From positions 1-21,868 of the IMG/VR virus record IMGVR_UViG_3300034374_003893: a stretch of DNA of 21,868 nucleotides. The stretch is one strand, 5' to 3'. The stretch's first letter is position 1. Each line of letters starts with the position of its first letter. Positions 2,656-21,402 of the stretch are shown piece by piece. Made by a program: the position numbers and the translations under genes. The DNA is from a virus. The notes beneath the pieces were generated by a model. The model did no database searches and was not told the DNA's origin. It saw only the letters and a list, made by a program, of their open reading frames with translations.

Positions 2656-5600
2656 TTATACAGATCCTCCGTCACTAATTGTCCAGTTATTAGGAGCTGA
2701 TGTGAGTATGTTTCTTGATGCTTCAGCTGCACCACCTGCGCTATATTGAGAACCTCCAAAGTCCACTGATAGTCCGCTATTTACATTCTGATGAGCCCAG
2801 CTAACTAAAGTTAGGTTGTAGTTAGAAGTACTCAAACCAGTAGCGTTCTGCATAATTTTGTTTAAGTTAGTTACGTTTTCTATATTCCAAGCGGCTAAGG
2901 ATTGGTCGAAGCTATCGCAGTTGTATAGCATATAGCTCATGTTTTGAGCATCAGTTAAATCCCAACTATATATATCTCCATTAAATTGTACGCAACCATG
3001 AAAAGCGTAGTGCATAAACTGGACCTTAGAGGTGTCCCAGGAGTTCAAATGTTGGTTAAAGCTTGAAGCATTATAAAAGATTGCATTCATAAAAGTGATA
3101 TTACTTGTGTCCCAATCATTTAAAGGTTGGTTAAACGAAGAACATTCGAAAAATACACCTCCAGCCAACAATACAGATGATACATCCCAATTACCAATAG
3201 CTCCATTAAAATTAGTACAATCTCTAAACATTCTATAAAGGTTTGTAGTTGTGACAACAGGAGCGTCTGTAGCGGTACAAGTCATATTAGAGCAGCCATA
3301 GAACATTGCAGTATTATGTATATCTAAAGCTCCCCATCTATTGATGTTATTAAGCTTGAGGTAATCTCCAGCGTTATTAAACTGCCATCCCTGAATAGTA
3401 CCATCTATAGATATAGTCTTAGGTGTAGTGTCTGGGGTTTGTTCTACTACTGATATGTTGTTAACAAACATAGATGGACTACCTGCAGTGGCTAAATAAA
3501 AATTAAAACTTGTAGAAGAGCTTGTAGCAGTAACGTAATATTCTTTAGAGCCTGAAGTGGTAAAGTTAGGTATTGTAACGCCTCCAAACGAAGCGTTAGC
3601 AACTCCACTTATAGTAACATCAAAAGTAAGCCTATACGTTGCTCCAGGTGTTGTAATTACATTAAGACTTCCTGATAAACCTCCACCTGAACCATTATTT
3701 GTAAATCCACCACTACCATCAGCAGTCCAATTAGGACCACTTAAACTTGATACGTTTAGAAGTTCACTACCATAAGTATAATAGCTGTGTAGTTTAGCAG
3801 CGTCATCCCATGCTGTGATTTTATCTTGCTCTCCATCACCCCAGTCTACCACAAAGTCTTGTGTGCCTGAGTTAATAAGAGGAAGTTCAAACTGGTTGGT
3901 GTCTGAATTTACTTTTTTGCATGAAAAGCTCATAGATGCTGTAGCAACTCCTGCTCTTCCATATATTCTAAGTGGACCTCCAGGAGAAACAAAATAAGCT
4001 GAAACTGTTCCGTTACTACCAAGACTCAATCCGCCAAGAGATCCTGTGTTTTGGCTTGACCAACCCATGTTTCCTCCTGGTGCTATTTGATTGTAATTGC
4101 TAATTGTAAGTTCTAATTTATATTTTTCTCCAGCCTCTAAAGAAGGCGTAACATCCTCATAATAACTAACGCCAGTTGTAGCAACCTCAATAAAATCAAC
4201 GCTTGTAGCTGTTACGTTTGCCCAATGTGTTGGGTTGTCTGGTGTTCCATTTGTAATGTCTGTTAACTCATCACCCAAGGTTATTAGGTTAGGGTTGACA
4301 GTGAACTGAAAAGCATTGTCTGTAGGCACATATCCACCGTCTGTTATAGTCCAGTTGTTAGGTGCTGAGGTAAGTGTGTTCCTGGAATCAAAGGCGCTGT
4401 AAGAATAAGTAGCACTACCAAATGATGTTGTTAAATTAGGATTGACAGTCTGAGCAGCCCAGCCTATTAGAGTGTTGTTATAGTTGTCTGTAGAGATAGT
4501 CTGACCATTGTTTTTAAATGATCCAATATTAATTGCTGAAGATATATCAAGGTAACCAAAAGAAGTATCTAAAACATCCATATAATCAGCAAACGCAAAG
4601 AAATTATCTACACTTGAAGTGTCCCAACCATCAAAGCCAAAGGACATATCTCTACAGTTAAAAAACATATACTGCATATAACGAACCCTACTTACATCCC
4701 ACATGCTAACATCTTGATTGAATGCATTAGCATTAAAGAACATAGCATTCATATCTACCTCAGCGTCATTCTTTATAGTCCAATTGTTTAGTGGCTGATT
4801 AAATTTAGTAGCGTTTTTAAACATGCTGGCAAAGTTAGTACAAGAGCTAACATCCCAACTATTTAAAGGCTGATTAAACTCATCGGCATCTTCGAACATA
4901 TTATTCATTCGTGTAACCAAAGAAGTATTCCAAGAACTAATGTCTTGATTAAATATATTACAATGTCGGAACGTATTCCCCATGTTGCTTACACCTAAAG
5001 TGTCCCATCCTCCAATCTGACCGTTAAAAACAGGACAGTTATAAAACATGTAATCTATTCTGTTAGCTGAAGATATATCCCAGTTTTCAAGGCCCTTCCC
5101 TGTGAAGTCGTTACAGCTATAAAACATTTGAGCGAAGGAGGTTACATCGCTTACATCCCAATTTGATAAATCTCCATTAAAGTTACTGCAACCTCTAAAC
5201 ATTCTATAAAAGACAGTTGCTGTAATAAGCGGAGCGTCAGTTGCTGTACAGGTCATATTGCTGCATCCATAAAAAGCTTCTTGTTGATCAAGCTTAAAGT
5301 TAGATCCGCCCCAGTTAACAATGTTAGACATTTTTAATTTGTCACCACCCGAATCAAACTTAAAACCTTTTAAAGGCTCTGTGTTAGCACGAATACCTAT
5401 AGTGTATGTTCCTGATGATGGGTAGGTGTGAAGCGTTTCAGCTTGATTGTATGATGTAATAATATCTTGTGTACCATCACCCCATATCACTGTAAAGTCC
5501 AGTGTTCCTGCTGAAATCAAAGGTAGCTGGAATTGATTAGAATTACTAACTCCTGATTGAGCTGTGTTCACACTGAATATAAATTCATCACCTACCAAAG

Positions 5601-8600
5601 GATCTGGGTCTGGTGGAGAGAACGCTACAATATTATCAGGATTCATATTCTCCATAATACCTGATGTGTCAGATACTTGTTGTACTGATACGTTGTCTAT
5701 TGAGCCTTGAAAATCTTGACCTTGAAAACTTGTAGGTTGAAAATATAATGTAGTATTTACTCCCGAAACTCCATAAAAAGTATGCGTTCCACTTGCAGTT
5801 ACAGATGATAGCTGAACAGAACCACCTAAAACTATTGCAATTCCACCTTGATTAACATTTGTAGTGAATGTTATTTTGTATGTTTTGCCTGTTTGCAGTC
5901 CTACAGCTTGTCTAATAGAACTATTTGTTCCGTTAAAATTAGCAACACCATCTTCTATACTCCAACCTGTACCTAAAATCCAATCACTATTAGGGTCTAC
6001 TTGTTTAGCTACTATATTCGATATTGAAACATCAGCAATAGATGTAAGTCTGTTAAAATACAATCTGGTTACACCTGCATCAGCACCAACTGTTCTAAGG
6101 TAAACGCTATAAGATCCTGTTTGATCTATTCTCTGTAAAATTTGGCCTCCACCTTTTTCAACCTTAGCTTCACCTTCTCTAACTACTGCGTCAAAAGTTA
6201 TTAGATAAGTTTTATTTGCAGAAAAAATATTATCCTGATATAAACCACTTCCGTTAGAGTCATTACTAATTAACCTTGCTGAATCACCCTCAATGCTCCA
6301 CTTACTTGCCAAAGTCCAATGAGGAACTTCTTTGACTGATACGTTACTAATTAAAATTTGTTGATTTTGTCCAGCAGTTTGTCCAAATTTTCTATGTATA
6401 AATAAATCATAATTTCCAGTACCAATAAAATAAAATGTGAATTCTTGATATGATGTAGTCAAACTTACATCTCCAATAGTTGTTCTTGTAGCAGCTCCTT
6501 CTGTTTCTAATATTTCTGCATCGAATATTGCAGTAGCTTTCATTGTTAATACTATCTTATATGTTTTGCTATTTTCAAAGATATTTTGTTGATACAATCC
6601 AGCATTACTATTACTCCCATCAATATTTATACTTGCTACATCTGTAAATGTAACTGTAGACGAACCAGATTCATACAAATCCCAAGAGTCATTAGGGTCA
6701 GCACAAGAAAAATCTCCACAAGTAACTAACTCTGGTCCAAGTCCAAATAGTGGGTTTTTAATTAGTTGTGGTCCAAGCTCGTCAAAGTTTCCGTTGTCAA
6801 CACGTTCCTCTCCAAATGGATTGTACACAACATCATGTATAACAGGGTAGGTAGCTGGGCCTTGAGTATCACCCATTCTCCACCAGTGATCTAAATCACT
6901 CATACCTGTTAGGTCAATAGCTCTGGCATCATCCTTGTCTGTGTTAGGTGCTGCAAGGCTGGTAATAAGCTTTGATGTAATATCAGATATTGTGAAAGTA
7001 TCAGTAGCGCCTAATGGAGTAATCTTCAAAGAGTTACTTCCAGAGCCAGCGATAACTGTAACAGAGCGTGATGAGTTGTCAGTTGTACTTCTTAGTGCAT
7101 TAACAGCAGTACCTCCATTGATACTAACAGCCACACCGTTAAGTGAACCGTCAAGTTGGAATTGTACTTGGTATTTTTTACCATCTTCATAGGTAGCAAC
7201 AGTCTGTTCTAAAGCAGATGCTGTTGTTCCTGTACCATCATATTCAGCCTGATTAGAGGAGTTGACAGTCCATCCATCGCCAAATGTCCAGTCAGAAATT
7301 TCTTTGACTGAAACGTTGTCTACATCAAAGTTAAAATTACCACCACCAAATTCTCTTGATATTTCTAAATCATCTCCATTTGTGTTAGGAGATACATAAG
7401 CAGTATATGTGCCATCTGATGTAACATTAAGGTTTTCAAAATTAGAACTTGCTCCTGAAAATCCTACTTCACAAGAACCACTAACATAGTTTTTTATTTG
7501 TAACTGTATTTTATAAGTTTTAGCTGCTAAACTACTAATGTCTTGTCTCGCATAGCTATACTCATTAGTAGCACTTTCTAAATGTAAAGCGTCATTTTCT
7601 ATAGTTGCTGCTCCTCCTAAACTCCAATCTCCATTAGGGTCTACTTCTTTTACTGATAATGTATAATCTACGCTAAATGTTTGTGAACCATCAAAATCAA
7701 AACCTTGCAATCCCGATGATACAGAAGTAAAATAAAAGGTTAATGGTTGTGATATGTCGTGGTTATTTACACTTCTTGTTCCATTTTCAAAAAAATCAAA
7801 CACAGTACTGCCTGTAACTGAAGTTGGTGTGTAAACTACTTTATATGTTTTTCCATTACTTAAACCTGAGTTAGATAAAGTTACTCTTGGTCTTGAGTCG
7901 TTTGTTGTAGCATTTCCTTGCGACCTATAATTATTCGCTCCTAAAGAAGTACTAATACTTCCGTTAAGGTCTGTAAAAGCCACATTACCATCAGCATAGT
8001 TTGCATCTTCATCACCCAACTCTTCAAAATCACCATTGAGTATTAGCTCGCTTCCAAGCTCTGTGAAGTTACCGTTTACTGTAAGGTTGGGTGTGAAAGG
8101 AATACTATATAGATAATTTATATCAGCCTGCGTGAGAGCTCTATTGAAAATAGCAGCCTCATCCATATATATGTTCTTACTATTTACGCCATCAGTAGTT
8201 CCTAAAATAAACTTACCCCCATTGTCAAACATCTGAACAAAAGGACCAGGAGTATTGACTCTTGTGACAACATTGTTCAACTGATTGTTAACGTAAATTC
8301 GTATGGAATTAGATTGTGCGTTTGGAGTAGTACCATCAAAAGTAGCAACAATGTGATACCACTTGTTAGTTTCTAATACAGTATCATTTCTACCTTGCCA
8401 GTAAGATGTACTGGTGGATGAAACATTACTGTCGTAAAGTCTAATACGAACCCTACCAGCTGAATCTGTCTCTAAATTATACTCAGCATCAGCAGTACCA
8501 ACATCACCCTTACCGCATATCTGTACACTTTGAGCAGTGTCGACAAAGTAAACCCATGTTGAAATAGAAAAGGCACGATCTGAAGCGACTGTACCTGGGA

Positions 8601-15055: not shown

Positions 15056-15363
15056 TCCTAAACGAACGAGTGAGGGATATGTTCTTTGACAGATTGACAA
15101 TTATGGTGATGCCTAATGGCTATCTTACTTACTATCGTAGCAAACAATGATACAGATGTGAAATCTCTTAGTTTAGGGAGCGATAGAGCATAGGAAGGTA
15201 CAGAGCAATCGAATCAGATAGAAGCACATCAGAACAGAGCAATCAATGGGAAATGTAGTACAGATTAACTGCCTTAAGCAGTTTAGGTAACTCTGATGAT
15301 GCCAGAGAGTATAAACTCTGGAGGATGCTCAAGCATCTACTTTAAATAGTCGAAACACAAATT
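15056..15363 (+). promoter_or_regulatory. Long structured 5' leader with boxA-like antitermination site
   Basis: About 365 nt separate the predicted start from the first ATG (15421), unusual in a genome with 20-nt leaders. TGTTCTTTGACA at 15080-15091 matches the E. coli boxA TGCTCTTTAACA at 10 of 12 positions. Hairpins follow: GATGCC/GGC-ATC (15108-15124, bulged), AACTGC/GCAGTT (15267-15283), CCAGAG/CTCTGG (15302-15321), GATGC/GCATC with loop TCAA (15324-15337). ACAGAGCAATC is repeated at 15200 and 15234. A 14-codon frame lies at 15246-15290. NusB/S10-type antitermination is the inference; none of this is proven from sequence. Confidence 0.5.
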
Positions 15364-15420
15364 ACAGATACACTTGAGAATGTATCTGTGTCAGTTACAA
15401 ACAATTTTATATTTATTACG
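15364..15420 (+). promoter_or_regulatory. Stem-loop + GTCAGTTACAAA leader cassette, copy 1
   Basis: Stem ACAGATACA/TGTATCTGT (9 bp, 15364-15389, 8-nt loop) is followed at once by GTCAGTTACAAA (15390) and an AT-rich leader of 31 nt to the ATG at 15421. First copy, at the end of the long leader. Confidence 0.75.
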
Positions 15421-19167: not shown

Positions 19168-19220
19168 AAGGAGGGCATCTATAGTAACTAAACTACATTT
19201 CCCATTATGTCAAAGAATAA

Positions 19221-19252
19221 TTTGGATATAAACAAATTATACTATATATTTG
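19221..19252 (+). promoter_or_regulatory. Consensus rightward promoter of the putative small RNA
   Basis: TTTG at 19221-19224, 20-nt spacer, TATATTTG at 19245-19252 (perfect). Predicted start about 19259. It is one of the two best promoters in the window. Confidence 0.7.
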
Positions 19253-19258
19253 CACAAG

Positions 19259-19440
19259 ATATGAAAATAAGGTGTGTAATGAGTGGCGTATGCCGTACAC
19301 ACTTAATAAGAGAGAAATCATTTGCGATACCAATCTCTTACCTTATTTCCTAAAACAAGTGAGAGTCGTAAATAGTCAGTCGGCAAAAGACTCCATCAGC
19401 CGAGATGGATACTGCAGAACACGACTCTCCTTTTTATACT
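19259..19440 (+). ncRNA. Putative structured small RNA (~180 nt)
   Basis: Between a consensus promoter and a T-run terminator, the sequence can fold into three domains: GTGTGTA/TACACAC (19272-19302) enclosing GGC/GCC; TAAGAGA/TCTCTTA (19307-19340); and a 9-bp closing stem GAGAGTCGT/ACGACTCTC (19361-19369, 19421-19429) around two small hairpins, AGTC/GACT and CCATC/GATGG, whose loops carry complementary GGC and GCC. The last stem is followed by TTTTT. A 30-codon frame starts at 19261 (MKIRCVMSGVC...) and could be a leaderless peptide instead. No known RNA family is recognised. Confidence 0.55.
19361..19435 (+). terminator. Terminator-like closing stem with T-run
   Basis: The 9-bp stem GAGAGTCGT/ACGACTCTC closes a branched loop of about 51 nt and is followed by C then TTTTT (19431-19435). 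The large internal structure is unusual for a simple terminator and is counted as part of the RNA. Confidence 0.5.
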
Positions 19441-19453
19441 TGTTTGTAACGAG

Positions 19454-19522
19454 GGGATGGTAATGCGTACTTTAGAGGGCTTCGCAACCCTCCATCCCAC
19501 TAACCAACTAAATTAAATTATT
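19454..19522 (+). promoter_or_regulatory. Hairpin and AT-rich leader before the next gene (degenerate cassette?)
   Basis: GGGATGG (19454-19460) pairs with CCATCCC (19492-19498) and encloses GAGGG/CCCTC (19475-19492, sharing one base). A 24-nt AT-rich leader (ending AAATTATT) follows before the ATG at 19523. The layout mimics the 11 cassettes but lacks GTCAGTTACAAA. Confidence 0.5.
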
Positions 19523-19702
19523 ATGTCAAACAGAATTAAAGTGAAGAAAGACCTACTCGACAGAGTCGAAGATGGGTTAGATTATTTTTTAGGTTTCCGT
19601 ATGGAAGAACTCAAGTCAGATGATAGGTACTACCTTGAAGCTATGTTTGAGTATATGGAATACTTGGAGAAGAAAGTTAATGAATTAACTAAAACTAAAT
19701 AA
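19523..19702 (+). CDS. 59-residue helical protein
   Basis: A small charged protein starting MSNRIKVKKDLLDRVEDGLD and ending KKVNELTKTK. Predicted as two helices with acidic and aromatic patches (YYLEAMFEYMEYLEKK). It is followed 2 nt later by the YubB-like gene. No known family. Confidence 0.6.
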   Translation: MSNRIKVKKDLLDRVEDGLDYFLGFRMEELKSDDRYYLEAMFEYMEYLEKKVNELTKTK

Positions 19703-19704
19703 CT

Positions 19705-20352
19705 ATGCCTAATCACGTTTATCACAACATTTCTATTGGTAGTGAGATTACCAAAGAAAGACAAGAGATTTTAGATGCTATTGAAGAATTGGGATGTATC
19801 TGTAGATACTACAATCCAATGCCTAAAGAACTTGAAGGAACTACATCTCCACAAAGAATTGGAGATACAGAGAACTGCACTATTACAGAAGCAAAGTCTG
19901 CCGAACTTAAACACAAGTACGGACACGACAATTGGTACGATTGGTGCAATGATAATTGGGGTACAAAGTGGGGATGCTACGAATTTGAGAAAGATGATGA
20001 CCAACTTCGTTTTACTACTGCTTGGTCTCCAATGGATGAACTAATCATCAAGCAAATGGCTCAAGACTTTCCTAATATGTTTTGGACTTTCGAGGAAGAG
20101 ACAGGATGGGGGGCTGAAATATCCATTGAAGGAGGAGACTTTATAGATGTTGTACAATATGATGAACCTACTTGGAGTGGAGAAGAAGAAATAGATTGTG
20201 GAGGAAGACTTCCAACAACACTAACTAAATTAGCACACCATCATCCAAACTTTGATGATGGCATCGGATGGTATGTCGATTGGAGCAAGGAATTTGCTGG
20301 AAAAACATTAGAAGAAGCTAAGGAATATGTTCTTAAAAACTGCTATCTATGA
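19705..20352 (+). CDS. YubB / Api92-like protein with ferredoxin-like domain
   Basis: A 215-residue protein with the family's marks: short N-terminal strand MPNHVYHNISIGS, NPMPKEL (37-43), the hallmark NWYDWCNDNWGTKWG (76-90), then FTTAWSPMDELI (103-114). A C-terminal extension contains GWGAEISIEGGDFIDV and Trp-rich segments. Such proteins are common on phages and plasmids (Api92, YubB, DUF1281); their biochemical role is not known to me. The C-terminus overlaps the next gene as ATGA. Confidence 0.75.
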   Translation: MPNHVYHNISIGSEITKERQEILDAIEELGCICRYYNPMPKELEGTTSPQRIGDTENCTITEAKSAELKHKYGHDNWYDWCNDNWGTKWGCYEFEKDDDQLRFTTAWSPMDELIIKQMAQDFPNMFWTFEEETGWGAEISIEGGDFIDVVQYDEPTWSGEEEIDCGGRLPTTLTKLAHHHPNFDDGIGWYVDWSKEFAGKTLEEAKEYVLKNCYL

Positions 20353-21108: not shown

Positions 21109-21402
21109 ATGAAGAAGGAAGTATTCAATAGATATGCTCAAGCAATAGCAGAGCAGTTTCATCTATCCCTCGACCAAATGTTCGACAAAACACGAAGAAG
21201 AGATTGTGTAGATGCACGACAAATGCTTTACTATCTCTGCATGGAAAGACCAATCAGAATATCTTATATTCAAAGATTTATGGAGGACAATGGACACTCT
21301 GTCACACACTCTACAATCATTCACGGATACAAGAAAGCAAAGCAACTTATAGATAGCGATGCTGATTTTAAGGACTTGGTCAAAGAAATCAGCGATGTAT
21401 AG
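21109..21402 (+). CDS. Stand-alone DnaA domain IV-like DNA-binding protein
   Basis: A 97-residue protein with the features of the C-terminal domain of DnaA: DARQMLYYLCMERPIRISYI (35-54), FMEDNGHSV (57-65), then THSTIIHGYKKAKQLI (66-81), which matches the DnaA signature DHSTV-HA. The AAA+ domain is absent, so it could bind DnaA-box-like sites without ATPase activity, for example to recruit or block replication initiation. ATG 21109 is chosen (after repeated CAAAT sequence); an in-frame start 33 nt upstream is less likely. It overlaps the next gene by 8 bases. Confidence 0.7.
   Translation: MKKEVFNRYAQAIAEQFHLSLDQMFDKTRRRDCVDARQMLYYLCMERPIRISYIQRFMEDNGHSVTHSTIIHGYKKAKQLIDSDADFKDLVKEISDV

Follow-up and report, generated by a model that had tools for sequence, protein, structure and literature searches.

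The window, a 21,868-nt fragment of a virus record, contains ahead of its replication genes a gap without any credible gene (19168-19522) in which a consensus promoter is followed by foldable sequence. The question raised by this locus is whether the interval encodes a self-contained small RNA gene, as an initial annotation proposed, or a structured leader of the genes behind it. Our reading, which we hold at slightly better than even, is that the interval serves as a modular 5' leader or attenuator, acting in cis on the replication-side operon of a Bacteroidota podovirus. All features of the interval and the genes downstream of it lie on the + strand.

The examination of the promoter region agrees with the perfect -33/-7 promoter and the gene-free gap described in the initial annotation. 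Positions 19221-19252 fit the Bacteroidota-type pattern TTTG-N18..21-TANNTTTG exactly, with the -33 box TTTG at 19221-19224, a 20-nt spacer and the -7 box TATATTTG at 19245-19252 (TTTG-N20-TATATTTG), and transcription is predicted to start at ~19258-19260. The window as a whole holds two matches to this pattern, where chance would give 0.78, the second lying just upstream of groEL, and the pattern scan of the window returned no further consensus promoter between 19221-19252 and the downstream genes. A small ORF at 19207, which spans the promoter and was considered as a coding explanation for the gap, is disrupted by a frameshift in one close relative (L007) and by a stop in another (L009); in L009 the -33 box is also altered to TTAG, while the -7 box is kept. 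Known RNAs did not account for the interval either: 19180-19520 gave no credible Rfam match at the gathering threshold or at E up to 5, the interval search matched no Rfam riboswitch, ARAGORN reported no tRNA or tmRNA, and similarity to GenBank phage DNA was limited to short chance matches. The whole 180 nt folds with a z of -2.9 relative to shuffles. Three downstream genes define the setting, namely a first gene of 59 aa without a family match (19523-19702), a second with a weak DUF1281_C match (19705-20352), and a protein with a DnaA C-terminal helix-turn-helix (21109-21402; PF08299, E 9e-10), which marks the replication side.

Three nested stems of 7, 7 and 9 bp had been described in this stretch. 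All three are present, but they do not form one nested set, as the 7-bp stems belong to one domain, module A, and the 9-bp stem to another, module B. Module A (19265-19348), separated from the promoter by 12 nt, is a three-way-junction RNA composed of P1 (19265-19272/19341-19348), P2 (19273-19277/19297-19301, with a 5-nt bulge and a variable apex), a conserved junction CUUAAU (19302-19307), P3 (19308-19312/19335-19339) and P4 (AUC/GAU, 19317-19328). By itself it folds with a z of -3.4 (1/200 shuffles equally good); single-copy MFE folds are often unexceptional, as they are for several copies, and the argument for module A rests on covariation and recurrence. In an alignment of nine sequences, hand-cut to helices and conserved loops and with the structure drawn from these same sequences, 92.6% of structure cells hold standard pairs and 10 pairs are changed on both sides, whereas slid controls gave 35-52% and none of 500 shuffles reached any measure. 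The picture was unchanged in a program-made alignment of 12 sequences. Covariation extends to P1, in L190 and in L071 (where the helix is lengthened, ATATCA/TGATAT), and to P3 and P4; the G-U pairs indicate that the structure is one of RNA and not of DNA, and the junctions and loops are strongly conserved. These observations are further strengthened by a covariance model that found unseen copies in L253/L256 at E 4e-14, and by a model built without L190 that ranked the L190 copy at the top in 0.9 Mb (E 0.004). Preservation of the stems in homologues, which had been set beforehand as the point on which the proposal could fail, is thus strongly borne out for module A. This comparative evidence identifies module A as an RNA family whose structure is under selection; it is not listed in Rfam and, combining covariation with no Rfam match, is a new structured RNA family. 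A literature search of incomplete coverage found no publication on it.

Profile and pattern searches yielded 13 distinct module A sequences in phages (window, L036, L113, L045, L110, L116, L056, L115, L071, L225, L177, L190 and L253/L256), with at most one copy per phage record (nine of 50 records in one set). Pattern searching of 84,980 bacterial and archaeal species genomes gave 26 matches, none of which was convincing, and within the sequences searched the module looks phage-specific. A weak model match in L229 (E 0.5-0.9) was rejected on account of many broken pairs, and neither module A nor hammerheads were seen in the GroEL phage MW202828 (L165). In most GroEL phages the module sits near the replication side, following the stop codon of a small gene, and the start codon of the next gene lies ~20-30 nt beyond its end. 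Both L225 and L177 have a consensus promoter followed directly by module A and then by a gene with a DnaA C-terminal domain, and in L253/L256, from a phage whose structural genes are different, the promoter is followed by a further structured stem, then by module A and the gene. L190 has a complete hammerhead core whose stem III consists distally of an A-like domain, and this hammerhead directly precedes a homologue of the window's gene 19705. Ten of the 13 copies close on a weak, A+U-rich P1 beside a U-run; those of the window, L253 and L190 have no U-run behind P1, so a terminator role for module A cannot be general. The genes behind module A in the different phages bear no visible relation to one another.

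Very near relatives reveal how the interval is divided. Searches with the downstream gene and with the module B core yielded eight such contigs; five of them (L002-L006) are identical to the window across the interval, and in the other three (L007, L008 and L009) module A is gone as an exact 89-nt block (~19264-19352, with AAA microhomology at the joint), the promoter, module B and a third hairpin being kept. Module B (19353-19445; fold z -3.77, 0/200 shuffles) is built on a 17-bp helix in which AAACAAGT and GAGAGTCGT (19353-19369) pair with ACGACTCTC (19421-19429) and ACTTGTTT (19438-19445). This helix encloses hairpins with a possible kissing or pseudoknot contact, as the initial annotation had observed; the complementarity read from the sequence extends over 5 bp, UCGGC (19380-19384) with GCCGA (19399-19403), and not 3, the second strand sitting in the loop of the hairpin CCAUC[AGCCGA]GAUGG (19393-19408). 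The T-run exit previously described, CUUUUUAU at 19430-19437, does follow the 9-bp stem (19361-19369/19421-19429) directly, and this stem and run upstream of genes have the geometry of an attenuator. The run lies, however, within a longer helix, the stem extending 8 bp beyond it through AAACAAGT (19353-19360) and ACTTGTTT, so that in a transcript continuing past this point it would be an 8-nt bulge of the 17-bp helix.

The third hairpin (GGGATGG/CCATCCC, 19454-19498) is a stable fold before the ATG at 19523 and is unchanged in L007 and L009. Module B is known solely from near-identical relatives of the window, in which a single substitution (L007/L009) turns an A-U into a G-U pair, and searches for diverged homologues by core, promoter and profile returned close relatives only, plus a leader in L055 with a different sequence. 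Between the window and L009, a single change separates module B and the third hairpin (148 nt together), whereas gene 19705 has 46 in its 648 nt; this low divergence is no more than moderate evidence, given that conservation along the contig is patchy. In L055, a similar promoter is followed by TATGAAACA and then by a leader with a module B-like folding plan and a gene directly after it, with no U-run and no Rfam family match. This arrangement favours a leader; we do not count its similar topology as proof of homology. At the position matching the window's interval, L010, which shares gene 19705, has a promoter, a hammerhead directly behind it and then a gene. Another promoter-plus-leader RNA with a strong hairpin was observed before an early gene in L189 (6217, +) and L185 (5261, +), and there a probable pseudoknot joins an upstream GCTAGG or CTAGGT with the hairpin loop GACCTAGC.

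Sequence comparison demonstrates three things: that the promoter matches the consensus, that modules A and B are separable, and that module A stands shortly before start codons as an RNA family under selection. The leader reading builds on a consensus promoter lying so close to module A with no other one before the genes, on the strong covariation of a module with G-U pairs and no more than one copy per record, on its placement between a promoter and a start codon in L225, L177 and L253/L256, on the short distance to start codons in most intergenic copies, on the exact block absence with its surroundings kept in L007-L009, and on the near-invariance of module B and the third hairpin together with the layouts of L055 and L010. 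Under this model, the strong promoter would start an untranslated leader of ~265 nt in which the separable modules A, B and the third hairpin fold on the nascent transcript and act in cis before gene 19523. The message would run on to 19523, part of it lost, in a regulated manner or otherwise, at the U-run, which in the window would be supplied by module B, and the folding of A and/or B would set the amount of polymerase or of translatable message reaching the replication genes. A ligand, a protein or the module's own tertiary fold may stabilise A. Attenuator-type control is what we infer from the stem-plus-U-run geometry. Of the three roles suggested in the initial annotation (regulatory RNA, host-factor decoy and leader controlling the replication operon), the leader is the best supported, by modularity, promoter and the placement of module A near start codons. 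Several points weigh against it: a discrete RNA could terminate at ~19437, on the U-run behind the 9-bp stem, the -33 box of L009 is degraded, module B is a predicted fold known from near-identical copies, and the differing genes behind module A are odd for a gene-specific switch.

Lambdoid put/nut-type antitermination leaders are single structured cis RNAs that lie close to where a phage operon begins, independent of which gene comes next; the interval resembles them in that arrangement, and its fold differs. Most module A copies also resemble attenuators and terminator-type riboswitches in being 5' leader domains with a closing stem beside a U-run and a start codon close by; they differ in that the copies of the window, L253 and L190 have no such run.

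The alternatives are best weighed against this modularity. A free-standing regulatory small RNA of ~180 nt, ending at the U-run and acting in trans or as a decoy, would account for the stable fold in a gene-free gap and for the U-run directly after the 9-bp stem, and the exact promoter match provides it with the promoter of its own that a small RNA gene needs. We nevertheless regard it as unlikely, because the two modules can occur apart, A recurring on its own in cis beside start codons, the helix extends beyond the U-run, the downstream genes have no other consensus promoter, and 6S RNA, tmRNA and all other Rfam RNAs failed to match. The 6S RNA (RF00013) is a bacterial small RNA of similar length, but it forms one long bulged rod, whereas two separable domains are found here with no Rfam match. 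The proposal of a self-contained small RNA gene is not supported by this comparison: the interval is not conserved as one unit, as L007-L009 lack A and keep the promoter and B, and elsewhere A occurs alone near start codons. Chance folding of AT-rich spacer DNA deserves mention because such phage DNA folds easily and the MFE folds of several A copies are unexceptional. It is very improbable for the interval and already largely refuted for module A by covariation in both the nine- and the 12-sequence alignments, far above the slid controls and unmatched by 500 shuffles, and by the model's detection of the unseen L253/L256 copies, to which is added the near-constancy of B and the third hairpin between diverged relatives.

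Two further readings address what module A itself may do, and the probabilities we attach to them overlap with those of the whole-interval readings, so that no total of one is to be expected. The first, in which module A is a new self-cleaving ribozyme or a processing signal shortening the message at its 5' end, would be in keeping with the hammerheads and pistols of related phages, which stand just before start codons and appear to trim message 5' ends, with the L010 hammerhead in a leader right behind a promoter, and with the strong conservation of the module's junctions and loops; enrichment near other ribozymes is moreover the rationale of published ribozyme discovery (PMC10085705, PMC4604425). 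Yet module A holds no known ribozyme motif in Rfam, most copies are backed by a U-run that is absent as a feature of the hammerheads here, and the copy embedded in a hammerhead would place two cutters at one site, and we consider this reading improbable, more so than the small RNA. A ligand- or protein-binding domain, that is, a riboswitch or operator placed on a stem as its controlling cap, with L190 as a natural allosteric ribozyme, seems to us possible though doubtful. It draws on the A-like top of stem III in L190, recovered by the held-out model, and on the different stem III inserts of other hammerheads in these phages; against it, only one such hammerhead was seen and its score is modest, no relation is visible among the genes that follow A, and the context suggests no ligand or protein. 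The broader proposal that module A is a new functional class of RNA, either self-cleaving ribozyme or sensor, interchangeable with hammerheads and pistols before early or replication genes and grafted onto a hammerhead in one phage, we put forward as tentative and less likely than not. If true, early-gene control in these phages would be largely RNA-based and modular.

The ribozyme setting in which this covariation-supported family outside Rfam occurs is a dense one, as the early regions of these phages are punctuated by hammerheads and pistols. Type I hammerheads (RF00163) lie in the same region, between or just before small genes, in related GroEL phages; L010 carries nine in its early region (3395-7650, +) before successive small genes, four of which Rfam reported as Hammerhead_1 below its curated threshold and none at gathering level. 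Over all loci ~70 distinct hammerhead cores were counted, a few of which are likely false. Pistol ribozymes (RF02679) above the Rfam threshold lie between small genes in the sister GroEL phages L042 (2156-3129, -) and L043 (6510-8234, -). Hammerheads, pistols and module A, singly or combined, take the same slot, and the one phage that fuses module A with a hammerhead makes simple cleavage and reporter tests possible. Neither known class describes the window's modules: the core scan of 19221-19440 found no hammerhead core (CUGANGA + GAAA, three stems), this core being absent from A and B alike, and the pistol model RF02679 matched neither A nor B even at E 5, although a loop pseudoknot is common to pistols and module B. 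Tandem hammerheads, including a triple arrangement, have been described in bacteria (PMC3088659), and an unexplained clustering of ribozymes close to phage genes has been reported (PMC10085705, PMC4604425); no published description of phage hammerhead arrays as dense as these was found in literature of incomplete coverage. Long structured inserts were also observed in stem III of the hammerheads of L058, L045, L056, L059, L062, L064 and L220, those of L058 and L045 having a common motif AAACCACGTTGGTAGAT.ATTAC, and such hammerheads are possible natural allosteric ribozymes.

The cassette repeats of the window itself (15287-15402 and the sites preceding 15698, 15956, 16330, 16560, 16992, 17251, 17488, 17974, 18447 and 18846) resemble the 3' halves of hammerheads, with a hairpin, then GU(C/U), then the stem I strand AGTTAC. 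In most of these half-hammerhead sites the hairpin ends no more than 2 nt from the cleavage triplet; between 15300 and 18900, T-H-AGTTAC turns up 12 times where 0.2 would be expected. The array is headed by a near-complete core with an enlarged stem II (GTAACT-CTGATGA ... GTCGAAAC ... GTC|AGTTAC). Inspection by eye found no permuted hammerheads at the half sites, which could belong to a trans-acting hammerhead or be decayed copies. The same plan with another stem I is seen in L094, where a GGTTAT head accompanies four GGTC|ATAACC half sites. Perfect palindromes, each phage having its own, are repeated before genes in L032 (-), MW202828 and L043 (-) (CTAGYCGACTAG, GTCGTTAACGAC and CGTTTAAACG, respectively), and in the pistols of L042 and L043 the palindrome CGTTTAAACG sits in the variable hairpin.
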